From assembly GCA_028289585.1 (NCBI GenBank), contig JANQPI010000026.1:62001-126000 (forward strand): DNA of 64,000 bases, written 5' to 3'. Positions 3,381-11,084 of this stretch are shown piece after piece. The notes below the pieces were generated by a model that saw nothing but the letters and a program-made list of their open reading frames with translations, was not told where the DNA came from and searched no databases. Position 1 is the first letter of the stretch, and each line of letters opens with the position of its first letter. Made by a program: the position numbers and the translations under genes. This stretch comes from Candidatus Zixiibacteriota bacterium (GTDB lineage: Bacteria > Zixibacteria > MSB-5A5 > GN15 > FEB-12).

Positions 3381-3779
3381 ATGATGGGTATGGGGCTGGA
3401 GTTTATCTGGCGATCACTGCGGACCACCGGACTTGTGTTGCTGGTCTGGTTCGCCTTTGCTTCTTACTACTTCGGATGGGTCCCCGCTGTATCGGCCTTC
3501 GTCGGGGGGGTCTGGGGCATGCTCAATCTGATGTTCATCACCCAACTCGTGCGTGTGGCCCTTCGGCCAGAAGGTGCTGATGTACGCCGCACGATCGGAT
3601 TCGCGCTCATCAAGTTTCCGCTACTTTATGGCGCGGGAGCCGCGCTTTTGCTCACCGCCGTGTTCGACCCGCTCTGGCTGGTCGGAGGGTCGACCGCGCC
3701 ACTGGTGATTCTCGTGCTCAAGGCCGCCGGCCGACTCGTCTCCGAGTCGCTGACATCAGAAGCAAAGGCGGTCGCATGA
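3381..3779 (+). CDS. atpI: ATP synthase subunit I (AtpI)
   Basis: About 132 residues with four predicted membrane helices and short loops, the size and layout of the AtpI family (PF03899). AtpI is a non-essential assembly factor that helps form the c-ring. It sits directly upstream of atpB, and its TGA overlaps the atpB ATG as ATGA. Three possible starts occur within the first four codons (ATG at 3381, 3384 and 3390), none with a strong ribosome site. Identification rests on size, topology and position, because the family is poorly conserved. Confidence 0.75.
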   Translation: MMGMGLEFIWRSLRTTGLVLLVWFAFASYYFGWVPAVSAFVGGVWGMLNLMFITQLVRVALRPEGADVRRTIGFALIKFPLLYGAGAALLLTAVFDPLWLVGGSTAPLVILVLKAAGRLVSESLTSEAKAVA

Positions 3780-4621
3780 CCCGGTTGATCGCACGTCTTT
3801 CGCTCATCTCGTTGCCGCTTCTGCTGGCTGTGCCGGTCTTTGCAGCTGGTGATGGTGACGGCGGTGGTGTTCCGCATCTACCGTCCCTCGTCAAGTGGCT
3901 GTCACTTTGGTTCCATGCCAAAGGACTGTACGAGTGGATCAACGTAATCTACGCGTTCCTCACGTCGCTGATCTTCATCTTCGTCGCGATGCGTGTTTAT
4001 GCGAATCGCAAGATGATTCCCGGACCATTCCAGAACTTTATTGAAATGCTGGTCGAGGGCGTCTACAACTTCCTCTACTCGATCCTCGGTAAAGACACCA
4101 AGACGTATCTGCCCTGGCTAGGTACGCTCTTCTTCTACATCTTTGTGAATAACATGTGGGGCATCATTCCCCTCGGCCACTCACCGTCAACGTCGTTGAG
4201 CATCACTGGCTCGCTGGCGGTGATCACGTTTCTCTTTGTCCAGTACACGGGATTGCGACGACTTGGCTTCGTCGGTTACTGGCGACACATGGCCGGCTTA
4301 GAAGGTGACAATATTCGTAACCCTGTGATGTGGGTGCTGCTACCGTTGCAGCTACCGATGCACATCATTGGTGAATTCGCCAAGCCGTTCTCGCTGGCGT
4401 TACGTCTTTTCGGAAACATCACTGGTGAGGATGTGCTGGTCGCGGCGTTTGTCGTGCTCGGCATTTCGGCCCTGTCGTTCATGGGCTCGCCGGTTGGACT
4501 GCCGCTCAATATCCCGTTTGTTATGCTGGGGACGCTCCTGTCACTCATTCAGGCGCTTGTCTTCACGCTGCTCTCGACGATTTACATTTTGATGATGCTC
4601 CCGCACGAGGAGCACCACTAA
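3776..4621 (+). CDS. atpB: F1Fo ATP synthase subunit a
   Basis: About 281 residues. The protein begins with a cleavable-looking hydrophobic segment (LISLPLLLAVPVFAAG), then the multi-helix a-subunit fold. The essential stator arginine is visible in FSLALRLFGNITGED as Arg210. A conserved Gln259 lies in the last helix (LIQALVFTLLSTIYI). These form the half-channel face against the c-ring. The start overlaps the atpI stop. The soluble linker rich in Gly and Asp after the signal (residues 25-31) is unusual but harmless. This is the membrane ion channel of the operon's synthase. Confidence 0.96.
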   Translation: MTRLIARLSLISLPLLLAVPVFAAGDGDGGGVPHLPSLVKWLSLWFHAKGLYEWINVIYAFLTSLIFIFVAMRVYANRKMIPGPFQNFIEMLVEGVYNFLYSILGKDTKTYLPWLGTLFFYIFVNNMWGIIPLGHSPSTSLSITGSLAVITFLFVQYTGLRRLGFVGYWRHMAGLEGDNIRNPVMWVLLPLQLPMHIIGEFAKPFSLALRLFGNITGEDVLVAAFVVLGISALSFMGSPVGLPLNIPFVMLGTLLSLIQALVFTLLSTIYILMMLPHEEHH

Positions 4622-4671
4622 GAACAATGCCAACAGTTAACGCACGATATACAGGGTTCTAGGAGGACATC

Positions 4672-4908
4672 ATGGACTATCAGGCAATGCTCGCATGGGC
4701 GCTTCCGATCGGTGTTGGTCTCGCCGCGATTGGTTCCGGTCTCGGTCTTGGCCGCGCCGTTGGTCAGGCGATGGAGGCAATGGGTCGCCAGCCGGAAGCT
4801 GCCGGAAAGATTCAGACCGCGATGATCATCGGTGCGGCGCTTATCGAGGCGCTGACCATTTACGCGCTGGTCGTCTTCTTCATTCTCCAGGGTCGTATCG
4901 GCGGCTAA
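4672..4908 (+). CDS. atpE: F1Fo ATP synthase subunit c (proton type)
   Basis: About 78 residues forming the usual helical hairpin. Helix 1 carries the glycine-rich GSGLGLGRAVGQA, the loop is GRQPEAAGK, and helix 2 carries the ion-binding Glu59 in GAALIEALTIYALV. In Na+-binding c subunits a Gln in helix 1 and a Ser or Thr right after the Glu are required. Here those positions are Leu26 and Ala60, so the ring should carry protons. A textbook AGGAGG ribosome site (4661-4666) precedes the ATG, as expected for the subunit needed in the most copies. Confidence 0.97.
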   Translation: MDYQAMLAWALPIGVGLAAIGSGLGLGRAVGQAMEAMGRQPEAAGKIQTAMIIGAALIEALTIYALVVFFILQGRIGG

Positions 4909-4978
4909 TCGCATCGCGATTATCGCAGTACCAACCTCCGCACCACAACCACGGTGTTAGCTCGGAGAGTGATGTTGT

Positions 4979-5461
4979 ATGGAATTTAAATTTGATCAGG
5001 CAATAACCCACGCCATCGGGTTCATCATTACCTTTTGGCTGATTGGGAAGTTCGCGTGGAAACCGCTCTTGGCCCTCATGGAGGAGCGGCGGAATCGGAT
5101 CGAGTCTGAGTTCAAGACGATCGAGAACGAAAAGGCTGCCGTTGCTCAGCAGCAGGCTGAGTACGAGCAGCGGATGCGTCAGATCGAGGACGAACGTCGG
5201 GCTGAACTTGTCAAAGCCGTTGAGGAAGGCAAACGCGTCGCCGCGCAGCTCAAAGAGGATGCGCAACGCGAGGCCTCGGCGATTTCCGACAAGGCGAAAG
5301 CCGATGTCGAACGCGAAGTGCTTAAAGCTCGTGTGCAGCTCAAGGACGACGTTGTGGCAATGACCATGACCGCGACGGAGAAAGTCCTTGGCGAAACGCT
5401 CGACGACGTCAAGCACCGCGACATGATCAGTCGCTACATCGACGACATGGCGAAGGCGTAA
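4979..5461 (+). CDS. atpF: F1Fo ATP synthase subunit b
   Basis: About 160 residues. One N-terminal membrane helix (residues 8-25, ending GKFAWKPLLALMEERRNRI) is followed by a long charged, alanine-rich coiled coil that forms the peripheral stalk. The FAWKPL motif at the membrane exit is diagnostic. The C-terminus would dock on the delta subunit encoded 6 bases downstream. Only one b gene is present, so the stalk is probably a homodimer. A GGAG sits about 11 bases before the ATG. Confidence 0.95.
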   Translation: MEFKFDQAITHAIGFIITFWLIGKFAWKPLLALMEERRNRIESEFKTIENEKAAVAQQQAEYEQRMRQIEDERRAELVKAVEEGKRVAAQLKEDAQREASAISDKAKADVEREVLKARVQLKDDVVAMTMTATEKVLGETLDDVKHRDMISRYIDDMAKA

Positions 5462-5467
5462 CGAACC

Positions 5468-6016
5468 ATGATTGCTGCCGAAGTCGCCAAACGGTACGGC
5501 CGCGCGCTGTACGATTCCGCGCGGGAGCGGAACCTCACCATTCAGGGGCATGATCAACTCGCGCCGCTGATTGGCGTTTTCCGCGATGACCGTCGCCTCA
5601 TCGATTACCTTTCCGCACCGCATGTGCTGGAGGAGACGAAAGAGGAGTTGGTCAAGCGTATCTTTGGCGATCGGTTGGAAGCGCTCTTCGTCGAGTTCCT
5701 GTTGCTCTTGGTGCGCAAGCACCGCATCCGATTCCTCCCCGAGATTCTCGAGGAAGTCGAACGGTTGTTCCGTGACGACAAAGGAATCCTCCAGGTGACC
5801 GTCACTTCGGCGGTTATCCTGACCGCGGTCGAAGAGGAACGAATCCGAGAAGCTCTCGAACGCAAGACAGGGAAGACGATTGAGCTGATTGCCAAAGTCG
5901 ACCCGTCCTTGATCGCCGGACTGATCGTTAAGATTGGCGATGATGTCGTCGATGGCTCGGTGAAACACCAGTTGGCGAGTTTGAAAGACGAATTAGAGCG
6001 GGTGCGCGTTTACTGA
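5468..6016 (+). CDS. atpH: F1Fo ATP synthase subunit delta
   Basis: About 182 residues with the delta/OSCP pattern: an N-terminal helical bundle (AKRYGRALYDSARE) and the C-terminal signature VDPSLIAGLIVKIGDDVVDGSVKHQL. It joins the b-dimer to the top of the alpha/beta hexamer. It follows atpF by 6 bases and is followed by about 100 bases before atpA, in which I see no gene. Confidence 0.95.
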   Translation: MIAAEVAKRYGRALYDSARERNLTIQGHDQLAPLIGVFRDDRRLIDYLSAPHVLEETKEELVKRIFGDRLEALFVEFLLLLVRKHRIRFLPEILEEVERLFRDDKGILQVTVTSAVILTAVEEERIREALERKTGKTIELIAKVDPSLIAGLIVKIGDDVVDGSVKHQLASLKDELERVRVY

Positions 6017-6117: not shown

Positions 6118-7647
6118 ATGGCTCTCAATCCGGAAGAAGTATCCTCAGTCATTAAGGCTGAGCTGAACAAATTTGACACGCAACTCGAGTCCGAATCGGT
6201 CGGGACCATTCTCCAGGTTGGTGATGGTATTGCCCGTATCTGGGGTCTGCAGGACGCCCAGATGTCGGAACTTATCTCGTTCCCCGGTGACGTTACCGGC
6301 ATGGTCCTCAACCTGGAAGAGGACAACGTTGGTGCGGCGATTTTTGGGTCGGATACCGACATCAAAGAGGGCGACACTGTTCGGCGGACCGGAAAAGTTG
6401 CGCAGGTTCCGGTAGGCGATGCGCTCCTCGGACGGGTTGTCAATCCGCTTGGTCAGCCGCTCGACGGTAAGGGGCCAATCGTAACCGATCGGTTCCGCGT
6501 ACTCGAAGGTCGGGCACCATCGGTCGTCGAACGCCAGCCGGTCTCCGAGCCGGTGCAGACCGGTCTCAAGGCGATCGACTCGATGATTCCGATTGGGCGC
6601 GGACAGCGCGAGCTGATCATTGGCGATCGTCAGACCGGCAAGACCGCCATCGCGATCGATACGATTATCAATCAGAAGAACTCGGATATTATCTGCATCT
6701 ATGTCGCGATTGGACAGAAACAGTCGACGATTGCCCAGGTTGTCGAAACGCTTCGTCAGAATGGTGCTTTGGATCACACGATCGTCGTATCAGCGACCGC
6801 CGTTGATCCGGCGCCGTTGCAGTATATTGCGCCCTATGCCGGTTGTGCGATGGGTGAGGAGTTCATGCACCAGGGCAAGCATGTCCTCTGTGTCTACGAT
6901 GATCTCACCAAGCAGGCGCAGGCGTATCGTCAGCTGTCCCTCTTGCTGCGTCGTCCGCCGGGACGTGAGGCGTATCCGGGCGATATCTTCTACACCCACT
7001 CTCGTTTGCTGGAACGAGCGGCCAAGCTCTCCGATAAGCATGGCGGTGGTTCGTTGACCGCTCTACCGATTATTGAGACGCAGGCTGGCGACGTCTCCGC
7101 TTACATTCCGACCAACGTTATCTCGATTACCGACGGTCAGATCTTCCTCGAAGGTGAACTGTTCTTCTCCGGGATTCGCCCCGCCATTAACGTCGGTATC
7201 TCCGTTTCGCGTGTCGGTGGTTCGGCGCAGACGAAAATGATGCGGAAGATTGCTGGTTCACTCAAACTTGACCTTGCGCAGTATCGCGAACTGGCTGCCT
7301 TTGCCCAGTTCGGTTCCGACCTGGATGCCGCCACGCAGCGCCAGCTTGCTCGCGGTGAGCGTATGGTCGAGCTGCTGAAGCAGGGGCAGTACCAGCCCAT
7401 GCCTATTGCTCGCCAGGTGATTGTCATCTGGGCGGGTACCCAAGGCTTCATGGATACGGTTCCGGTCGACGATGTTGCCCGGTTTGAGACCGAGTTTCTG
7501 GCGTTTATCGATGAGAAGTATCCCGATCTCGAGCCGACGCTCGATAAGGAGAAAGCACTCTCCGATACAACGGTCGAGAAGTTGAAGAGTGCGATCGAGA
7601 CGTTCAAACGAGACGTCTTCCGCACCTCTGCCGGAGAGACCTGCTAA
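6118..7647 (+). CDS. atpA: F1Fo ATP synthase subunit alpha
   Basis: About 509 residues, full length. It shows the N-terminal barrel, the P-loop [11 protein letters not shown] (residues 169-179) and the arginine finger Arg365 in [11 protein letters not shown], which completes the catalytic site of the neighbouring beta subunit. Gln172 in the P-loop marks the non-catalytic alpha type. A GGAG lies about 8 bases ahead of the ATG. The gene ends only 16 bases before an unrelated outer-membrane barrel gene and not, as usual, before atpG. Confidence 0.98.
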
Positions 7648-7663
7648 CTAGGGGGTGGCTACT

Positions 7664-8341
7664 ATGCGAAAGATTTTAGCTTTCACAGTGGTCTTTGTGT
7701 TGACATCGCTGTCGGCTTCGGCGGTAGAGATTACGATCGGTGCCGTAGGTAGCTTTTCGTCATCTCGAATCGTGGGTCAGCCGATTGACGGGTTCTTTGG
7801 AAGTGATGCCCGCCGCGAGGCGCGTAGTACCTTCTCACCGGGTGGTTTTCTGAATGTCGCGCTATCTGAGACCATCAGCCTGAGGACGAGCATTCGCTAC
7901 GCTGAAAAGGGACAAGATGTTCTTCTTGCGATTAACGCCCAGAATGAACTAGGCGAGATGTTAGAAACGCCTGAGGTAGAGCGGCTCGATTACGAATTTG
8001 AGTACGTTGACGTCGTGACAGCGATTCGCTTCTTGCCATCGACGTTAGCGTTTAATGGTATCCAGCCGTATTTCAGCGGTGGGTTACTACTGTCGTTCTT
8101 CTCTTCGGGAATTGCCCGTCAGGATCCCTTTACCCCACTTACTGTTGAAGAGTCGGGCTCCAAACCCGAAGTTGGTTTTGCGCTGGGAACGGGTATCCAA
8201 GTCAATGTAGGTAAACTGCGACCCGAATTCGGTATCGAGTATCTCCGCTCGTTATCAGGTTGGGCTATCGATGCTGTCGAAGAGTTCCCAGATAAGCATG
8301 AGACGCTTCAAATCTATGGAGGCATTGGTCTCACATTGTAG
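7664..8341 (+). CDS. Outer-membrane beta-barrel protein inside the atp operon
   Basis: About 225 residues. A signal peptide (MRKILAFTVVFVLTSLSASA) is followed by alternating amphipathic strands such as GGFLNVALSETISLRTSIRYAEKG and LQIYGGIGLTL. The protein ends on an aromatic/hydrophobic strand, as in the OMP_b-brl_2 type porin-like families. I chose the ATG at 7664 over a GTG at 7655 because an AGGGGG ribosome site sits about 8 bases ahead and the signal peptide then starts correctly. It lies 16 bases after atpA and 13 bases before atpG, on the same strand, with no visible promoter or terminator, so it should be co-transcribed with the ATP synthase genes. No functional link to ATP synthesis is known to me. 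Confidence 0.75.
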   Translation: MRKILAFTVVFVLTSLSASAVEITIGAVGSFSSSRIVGQPIDGFFGSDARREARSTFSPGGFLNVALSETISLRTSIRYAEKGQDVLLAINAQNELGEMLETPEVERLDYEFEYVDVVTAIRFLPSTLAFNGIQPYFSGGLLLSFFSSGIARQDPFTPLTVEESGSKPEVGFALGTGIQVNVGKLRPEFGIEYLRSLSGWAIDAVEEFPDKHETLQIYGGIGLTL

Positions 8342-8354
8342 GGATCAATGAGTT

Positions 8355-9227
8355 ATGCCAACCCTTCGCGAAGTAAAGAATCGGATCCGCTCCGTCAAAT
8401 CGACCCGTCGCATCACCAAGGCGATGGAAATGGTCGCTGCGGCCAAACTTCGTCGCGCCCAGCAGCGCGTTGAGGAAGCGAAGCCGTACGCGCATAAGCT
8501 TGACGAAATGCTGTCACACCTCGCTGCTGGCTCATCGTCAGAGATCTCCCATCCCTACTTTGAGGAGCGTGAGGTTACCAAGCGAACCCTCGTCGTTATC
8601 GCTTCCGACCGCGGACTCTGTGGTTCGTTCAACGGCAATATCCTCCGCCGGGGTGACGAGTGGCTTGCCAACAACGCTCATCTCGACGCCGATCTTGTTA
8701 CGATTGGCAAGCGCGCTACTGATTACTATCGGAAGCGCCCGTGCAAGCTCAGTGCGAGTTTCAATGACTGGGGCGGCATTCTCGATTACGATCGCGTCCG
8801 TGAGATCGTGGCCTATCTGACCGACCGCTTTGTGACCGGTGATACCGATGCGATTGATCTGTTGTTTACGCGGTTTGAGTCGATGGTGCGCTACCGTCTG
8901 TCGATGGAGTCGTATCTGCCGGTTGCCCGACCGGAAGTCAGTGATGACGATAACGGTGGAACATCGCTGGAGTACATTTTCGAACCGTCTCCCGAACAGA
9001 TTTACTCGGCGCTGATGCCCGGCTACGCAACGACCAAAATGGTTACTGCGATTGTCGAGTCGCTGGCGTCGGAGCACGGTTCGCGGATGCAGGCGATGAG
9101 CAACGCAACGAAGAATGCTGGTGAAATGATTGACGACCTGACGCTCGATTACAACAAAGCACGTCAGGCGCAGATTACGAAAGAACTGCTGGAAGTGGTC
9201 GGCGGAGCCGATGCCCTGGCCGGGTAA
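8355..9227 (+). CDS. atpG: F1Fo ATP synthase subunit gamma
   Basis: About 290 residues. The N-terminus (LREVKNRIRSVKSTRRITKAMEMVAAAKLRRAQ) and C-terminus (MQAMSNATKNAGEMIDDLTLDYNKARQAQITKELLEVVGGADAL) form the paired helices of the rotor shaft, and both are well conserved. The central Rossmann-like domain includes SDRGLCGSFNGN. The gene follows the barrel gene by 13 bases and precedes atpD by 33 bases. Confidence 0.97.
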   Translation: MPTLREVKNRIRSVKSTRRITKAMEMVAAAKLRRAQQRVEEAKPYAHKLDEMLSHLAAGSSSEISHPYFEEREVTKRTLVVIASDRGLCGSFNGNILRRGDEWLANNAHLDADLVTIGKRATDYYRKRPCKLSASFNDWGGILDYDRVREIVAYLTDRFVTGDTDAIDLLFTRFESMVRYRLSMESYLPVARPEVSDDDNGGTSLEYIFEPSPEQIYSALMPGYATTKMVTAIVESLASEHGSRMQAMSNATKNAGEMIDDLTLDYNKARQAQITKELLEVVGGADALAG

Positions 9228-10667
<1,440 letters not shown>

Positions 10668-10670
10668 GCC

Positions 10671-11084
10671 GTGTTCACGCTGTCGATTGTTACACCGGAA
10701 AAAGTGCATTACGAAGGTGAGGTGAAAAGCCTCACCGTCCCGGGGACCGAGGGCTATCTCGGTATCCTCTCCAACCACGCCCCACTGATCTCAGCGCTCA
10801 AGCCGGGCAAGATTGAGTTCCGCGACGCCAATGATACCGTCCAAATCCTCGCCGTTTCGGGGGGATTTGTGGAAGTGTCTCAAAATGTGGCGACGATTCT
10901 GGCCGATGCTGTGGAGGCTGCCGACGACATTGACATCGAGCGAGCCCGTCGCAAGTACGAGGCGCTTCGCAACCGCATCTATAACGCCGGAGGCGATGTT
11001 TCTTCTGATATCGATCTCCCCTCGGCACGGTTGGAACTCGAGCAAGCCGCGAACCGCATCAAGGTCTACGAAGACACCCACTAG
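10671..11084 (+). CDS. atpC: F1Fo ATP synthase subunit epsilon
   Basis: About 137 residues from a GTG 3 bases after the atpD stop. The N-terminal beta-sandwich reads FTLSIVTPEKVHYEGEVKSL, then VPGTEGYLGILSNHAPLISALKPG, the family signature. A two-helix C-terminal domain is present (about residues 87-137), so the inhibitory arm that can block ATP hydrolysis appears to be kept. It closes the operon. I see no intrinsic terminator in the 48 bases before the next promoter. Confidence 0.95.
   Translation: MFTLSIVTPEKVHYEGEVKSLTVPGTEGYLGILSNHAPLISALKPGKIEFRDANDTVQILAVSGGFVEVSQNVATILADAVEAADDIDIERARRKYEALRNRIYNAGGDVSSDIDLPSARLELEQAANRIKVYEDTH

Follow-up and report, generated by a model that had tools for sequence, protein, structure and literature searches.

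A predicted outer-membrane beta-barrel gene between atpA and atpG occupies a family-specific, dynamic slot in Candidatus Zixiibacteriota

The window analysed here is a stretch of 64,000 nucleotides from a Candidatus Zixiibacteriota bacterium (NCBI GenBank assembly GCA_028289585.1, contig JANQPI010000026.1, positions 62,001 to 126,000 of the forward strand), and its plus strand carries an ATP synthase cluster in the order atpB-E-F-H-A-(barrel)-G-D-C. In this cluster, atpB, atpE, atpF and atpH (3776..6016), atpD (F1 beta; 9261..10667) and atpC (F1 epsilon; 10671..11084) were identified from their translated sequences. Both atpA (F1 alpha; 6118..7647, 509 aa) and atpG (F1 gamma; 8355..9227, 290 aa) were intact and yielded strong Pfam matches (i.e., PF00006, PF00306 and PF02874 for atpA, and PF00231 over 285/285 positions for atpG). 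Between the latter two genes, at the junction referred to below as the slot, lies a plus-strand ORF of 225 aa (7664..8341) predicted to encode an eight-stranded outer-membrane beta-barrel. It is separated from the atpA stop codon by a 16 bp spacer (7648..7663, plus strand) containing a Shine-Dalgarno-like AGGGGG, and from the atpG start codon by a 13 bp spacer without hairpin (8342..8354, plus strand). No sigma-70-like promoter was found in the region 7400-8500, and the terminator-like matches in this region all fell within the barrel ORF. The first-pass annotation, which had described a signal-peptide-bearing barrel gene with no visible promoter between intact atp genes, was therefore borne out by the organisation of this locus.

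The start codon of the barrel ORF was assigned to the ATG at 7664, as the spacing of AGGGGG suits this codon and not the in-frame GTG at 7655. Starting from the latter (GTG GCT ACT; 7655..7663, plus strand) would lengthen the window barrel by three residues (MAT), and the resulting MATMR corresponds at four of five residues to the atpG tip (MATLR or MPTLR), i.e., the first codons of atpG that turned out to be copied in relatives. This likeness ends after five residues, and a 4/5 match was reached by 0/49 non-slot barrels. While these codons might be a hint, and a hint only, of an eroded atpG tip, the window barrel has no clear tip fusion, and the window genome itself demonstrates only a single-copy insertion.

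The N-terminus of the window barrel, MRKILAFTVVFVLTSLSASA followed by VEI, was judged by eye from the translation to be a putative signal peptide (7664..7723, plus strand; model helix at residues 2-15) with a presumed cleavage site just ahead of VEI. An AlphaFold model, for which the input included eight homologous slot proteins, showed eight strands (residues 22-37, 50-66, 71-90, 104-123, 133-154, 169-180, 185-196 and 211-224) at a mean pLDDT of 81.6, in agreement with the barrel of eight or more strands anticipated in the first-pass annotation. The closest solved folds included NspA, OmpA, OmpW and OprF (Z of 17-18 over ca. 130-175 aligned residues, via Foldseek and VIA-align). Taken together, the signal peptide judged by eye and the closed barrel in the model place the predicted protein in the class of eight-stranded outer-membrane beta-barrels. 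Since identity to solved eight-stranded barrels is 7-15%, the fold is fixed but the function is not, and the fold shared with the OmpA transmembrane domain, NspA, OmpW and OprF proves no common function. Membership of the OmpA family itself was rejected, as the ORF stops with strand 8 and Pfam returned no match to a C-terminal peptidoglycan-binding domain.

At the sequence level, a Pfam search with the window barrel gave no match at E<=1, so that it also stayed below the PF13568 cut-off (27 bits), unlike most slot barrels of relatives, which scored above the Pfam cut-offs of PF13568 (OMP_b-brl_2) or PF13505 (OMP_b-brl). Neither of these two known families is linked to the atp operon, in contrast to the slot barrels. 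The window barrel did align with a profile built from the remaining slot barrels (single-sequence E of 5e-18), and a profile from paralogues found via PF13568 matched it as well. A weak match to NCBIfam NF049866 (TDE1717; residues 1-86, E 1.2e-6) remained below the cut-off (28.6 vs. 135 bits), and assignment to TDE1717 was rejected. Searches of PDB sequences and of PHROGs with the window protein returned no match.

The slot was subsequently read in 48 genomes of the window's family, i.e., 47 genomes and the record JADFPZ010000227.1 (hereafter JADFPZ, assigned to genus g13 by sequence), in which the atpA-atpG junction, or failing this the sequence preceding atpG, was readable. Barrels filled the slot in 21 of the 48 (13 genera), i.e., in G000 (the window genome), G004, G008, G011, G012, G018, G019, G023, G026, G028, G032, G034, G062, G063, G064, G066, G068, G070, G073, G077 and JADFPZ, with G023 and G063 counted as filled though their contig stops before atpA. 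The remaining 27 slots were empty, with atpA-atpG gaps of 0.01-0.15 kb. One further genome (L042/G027) was excluded, the region upstream of its atpG being other than atp sequence and containing an N-run. As the same slot is barrel-filled in 20 further family genomes, the window insertion is more than chance, and comparison with relatives upheld the insertion that the first-pass annotation had singled out. The inserted ORFs, one to five in tandem, were barrel-like in 35/35 cases, and each of the 35 has kept its signal peptide, its ribosome site and a full-length frame. Barrels were not found elsewhere in the atp loci that were read, nor did any of 56 genomes from 17 further families in the phylum have a slot barrel. 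Several loci of other families (L235, L239, L241, L242, L243, L245 and L247) have atpA-atpG gaps of 183-255 bp without an ORF of at least 90 aa.

On the tree of atpA and atpG, occupancy requires 10 changes between filled and empty, with at least 9 of these changes forced by well-supported branches, and close pairs of filled versus empty slots occurred within genera (G011 vs. G061, G073 vs. G036, and G028/G077 vs. G076). Since occupancy changes within genera, the barrel must be dispensable for the atp operon. Where a filled site has an empty sister site, comparison of the flanks revealed neither a target-site duplication nor an insertion-sequence trace.

These occupancy data bear on both explanations offered in the first-pass annotation. 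The first, in which the amount of barrel would follow ATP-synthase expression and the outer membrane would thereby track the energy state of the cell, draws on position, i.e., the shared strand, the spacing of 16 and 13 bp and the lack of a detectable promoter. However, occupancy is patchy within genera, unrelated barrel types occur at this one place, some relatives have strong hairpins in the spacer ahead of atpG that may uncouple the barrel from atpG, and no regulatory feature pointing to energy coupling was seen at the slot, all of which renders such coupling highly improbable. The second explanation holds that the gap simply tolerates inserts and that the barrel is a neutral hitchhiker with no selected role there, as might be suggested by the relatives (27/48) that live without a slot barrel and by the fact that no regulatory element was seen. 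Nevertheless, slot barrels are under purifying selection, with dN/dS values of 0.10-0.22 (seven pairs) vs. about 0.08-0.10 for atpG. Moreover, the slot contains exclusively barrel genes, their signal peptides, ribosome sites and frames are maintained throughout, and gain or exchange recurred at the same place, so that neutrality appears very unlikely.

With regard to the spacers of relatives, the one between barrel and atpG in loci L152 and L153 forms a perfect 10-bp hairpin (CCGCGTGCGG/CCGCACGCGG) that changes to CCGCATGCGG/CCGCATGCGG in the sister genome of the two, which is a compensatory change. Since no T run follows this hairpin, it is unlikely to be a terminator. Strong hairpins were also present in the corresponding spacers of L008 and L009.

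Tandem barrels were counted in G011 (two), G012 (three), JADFPZ (three), G066 (four) and G034 (five). In two genera, a number of these ORFs proved to be fused to a copy of the atpG tip, i.e., barrels 3-5 of G034, barrel 3 of G012, barrel 3 of JADFPZ and barrel 4 of G066, together with a further G066 barrel that precedes a second atpG. Such tip-fused ORFs open with in-frame atpG codons 1-16 or 1-26 (MATLREVKKRIRTVVS or MPTLREVKKRIRTLESTRRIAKTVGM), followed by a hydrophobic stretch and then the barrel, and the atpG start is repeated as 72-79 nt copies in the slot. In the tip-fused barrel of G012, residues 3-26 were independently recognised by Pfam as PF00231, and across 54 genomes no tip was seen outside atpG and the slot. 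One tip-fused barrel was modelled, giving a single helix at residues 4-30, comprising the tip and the hydrophobic stretch, ahead of an eight-stranded barrel. The tip contains the basic residues that a signal peptide requires at its start, and probably supplies this part of the export signal. Tips of the g30 genome scored 37-43/48 against g30 atpG vs. 32-39 against g13 atpG, and this likeness to their own atpG fits either separate origins or local homogenisation.

The G034 and G012 arrays lie on long contigs with no N in the array, while the G064 and G066 arrays stem from MAGs with N-joins. In G066, a one-contig MAG, tip-fused barrels stand ahead of each of two atpG loci (L143 and L144), with a 100-N join in the upstream part of L143 and a second one within L144. 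These loci may represent a strain mix rather than two operons, and the second atpG locus, located after a 100-N join, was not counted as a second operon. In G064, a 'chromosome' MAG, locus L140 (C1:1385729-1387180) appears to join atpG to the start of dnaK over an N-run, which is a scaffold artefact.

Alignment of related arrays further delineated the modules. Between JADFPZ (L073) and G034 (L043), the alignment began just before barrel 3 and extended across this barrel, its spacer and the first 51 nt of the next ORF (atpG in JADFPZ, but barrel 4 in G034), then parted and returned at the intact atpG. From these edges it follows that two modules, set precisely at the atpG tip, were either added in G034 or lost from JADFPZ. 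Likewise, the alignment of G034 and G012 (L038) started with the tip of their last barrel and continued into atpG, whereas the preceding sequence differed. With the homology blocks of related arrays ending at tip copies, the atpG start marks the point of addition or exchange of barrel modules.

SXT/R391 elements integrate at the 5′ end of prfC, and a specific recombinase or mobile element might similarly use the atpG start as its attachment site. In both situations the insert enters at a gene start and the gene behind it stays whole, and the tip-fused inserts indeed have a directly repeated atpG start on their upstream side, with a whole atpG downstream. In contrast to SXT/R391, however, the slot shows no integrase or element and carries as cargo a single barrel gene fused in frame to the copied start. 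The arrays contain barrel ORFs only and no recombinase gene, most filled slots (including that of the window) lack a recognisable tip copy, and tip lengths differ (48 vs. 78 nt). We consequently give an attachment site of this kind very little credence.

The barrels themselves also differ between arrays. At least two barrel types occur in the slot (PF13568-like and PF13505-like, next to a third that is weakly matched), and the type at position 2 differs among JADFPZ, G034 and G012, even though the same ribosome-site leader (AAAGGAGGAACAAATG) stands ahead of it. In addition, dS amounted to 1.0-1.3 for barrel 1 and 0.19 for the last barrel, vs. 0.34-0.39 for atpG, and values both above and below that of atpG fit exchange rather than plain descent.

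A contrasting scenario would have a single ancient insertion in the ancestor of the family, inherited vertically by a fast-evolving gene with many losses, and arrays as simple tandem duplicates. It is compatible with the starred branches of the barrel tree, which force just one slot-label change (a result bearing on the main barrel type), with several slot barrels of a single genus being sisters, and with barrel 3 of L038 possibly being a duplicate of barrel 2 (44% identity). Nevertheless, this scenario seems unlikely in view of the multiple barrel types in the slot, the three types behind one shared leader at position 2 of three close genomes, and barrel dS values that lie far above and far below those of atpG in the same genome pairs.

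Among slot barrels of the main type, that of the window is the most diverged (26% identity to its first slot relative). Its best single matches were G066 slot barrels; its profile scores were similar for slot and non-slot barrels, with the latter slightly higher, and the barrel tree was poorly resolved. The GC3 of the window barrel (0.52) is the lowest of the 53 window genes (mean 0.66), and GC3 was below that of atpA and atpG in 29/29 slot barrels. A recent foreign origin on the basis of base composition was nevertheless dropped, since non-slot barrels of the same genomes have equally low GC3 (paired p 0.9). Within family f1, barrel genes as a class, slot and non-slot alike, have lower GC3 than the atp genes of the same genome.

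Across slot barrels, strands and turns were nearly constant in length, whereas the loops varied (L1, 5-15; L2, 0-13; L3, 10-25; L4, 12-36 residues). All four variable loops are located on one face of the barrel, which by analogy with OmpA is taken to be external.

On balance, we consider it fairly probable that the window gene is one of the occupants of a lineage-specific slot that barrel genes enter, leave and swap, with atp transcription and recombination together as a working model. In this model, the slot would lend a surface protein the steady and strong transcription of the atp operon, as transcription of the atp genes probably continues across the barrel gene, and the product would be exported and folded as a small barrel at the cell surface. 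Recombination at or near the slot, which two genera show visibly within the opening 48-78 bp of atpG, would add, delete and swap modules, by which exposed loops would change while atpG remains whole; phages, predators or habitat might be the selective agents. A more specific version, put forward only tentatively, is that the atpA-atpG junction could be a surface-variation locus in which the first 48-78 bp of atpG serve both as recombination handle and as signal-peptide start, with the window gene representing an old single-copy state.

Cassette-type surface-protein variation loci include neisserial opa and the variable lipoproteins of mycoplasmas. Like these, the slot has tandem modules for putative surface proteins with common 5′ ends and exchanged bodies, but it differs in lying inside a core metabolic operon and in having a shared 5′ end derived from atpG. 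Our survey of mainly freely accessible literature retrieved nothing relevant on a barrel or other insert in an atp operon or on Zixibacteria porins.

Few bacterial gene orders are as stable as that of F1. While the fold of the slot barrels is ordinary, their address is extraordinary, i.e., a real, family-specific and dynamic slot, and the middle of this stable gene order is here a hot spot for fast-turning putative surface genes. If the working model holds, a core operon would serve as the platform from which variable envelope proteins are expressed, and the first codons of a housekeeping gene would be reused as a signal-peptide start. The filled, empty and stacked sites moreover provide a natural series for studying how an operon accepts new genes.

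Finally, non-slot PF13568 barrels often occur as tandem pairs elsewhere in the genomes (L169, L172, L178, L184, L187, L193 and L200).
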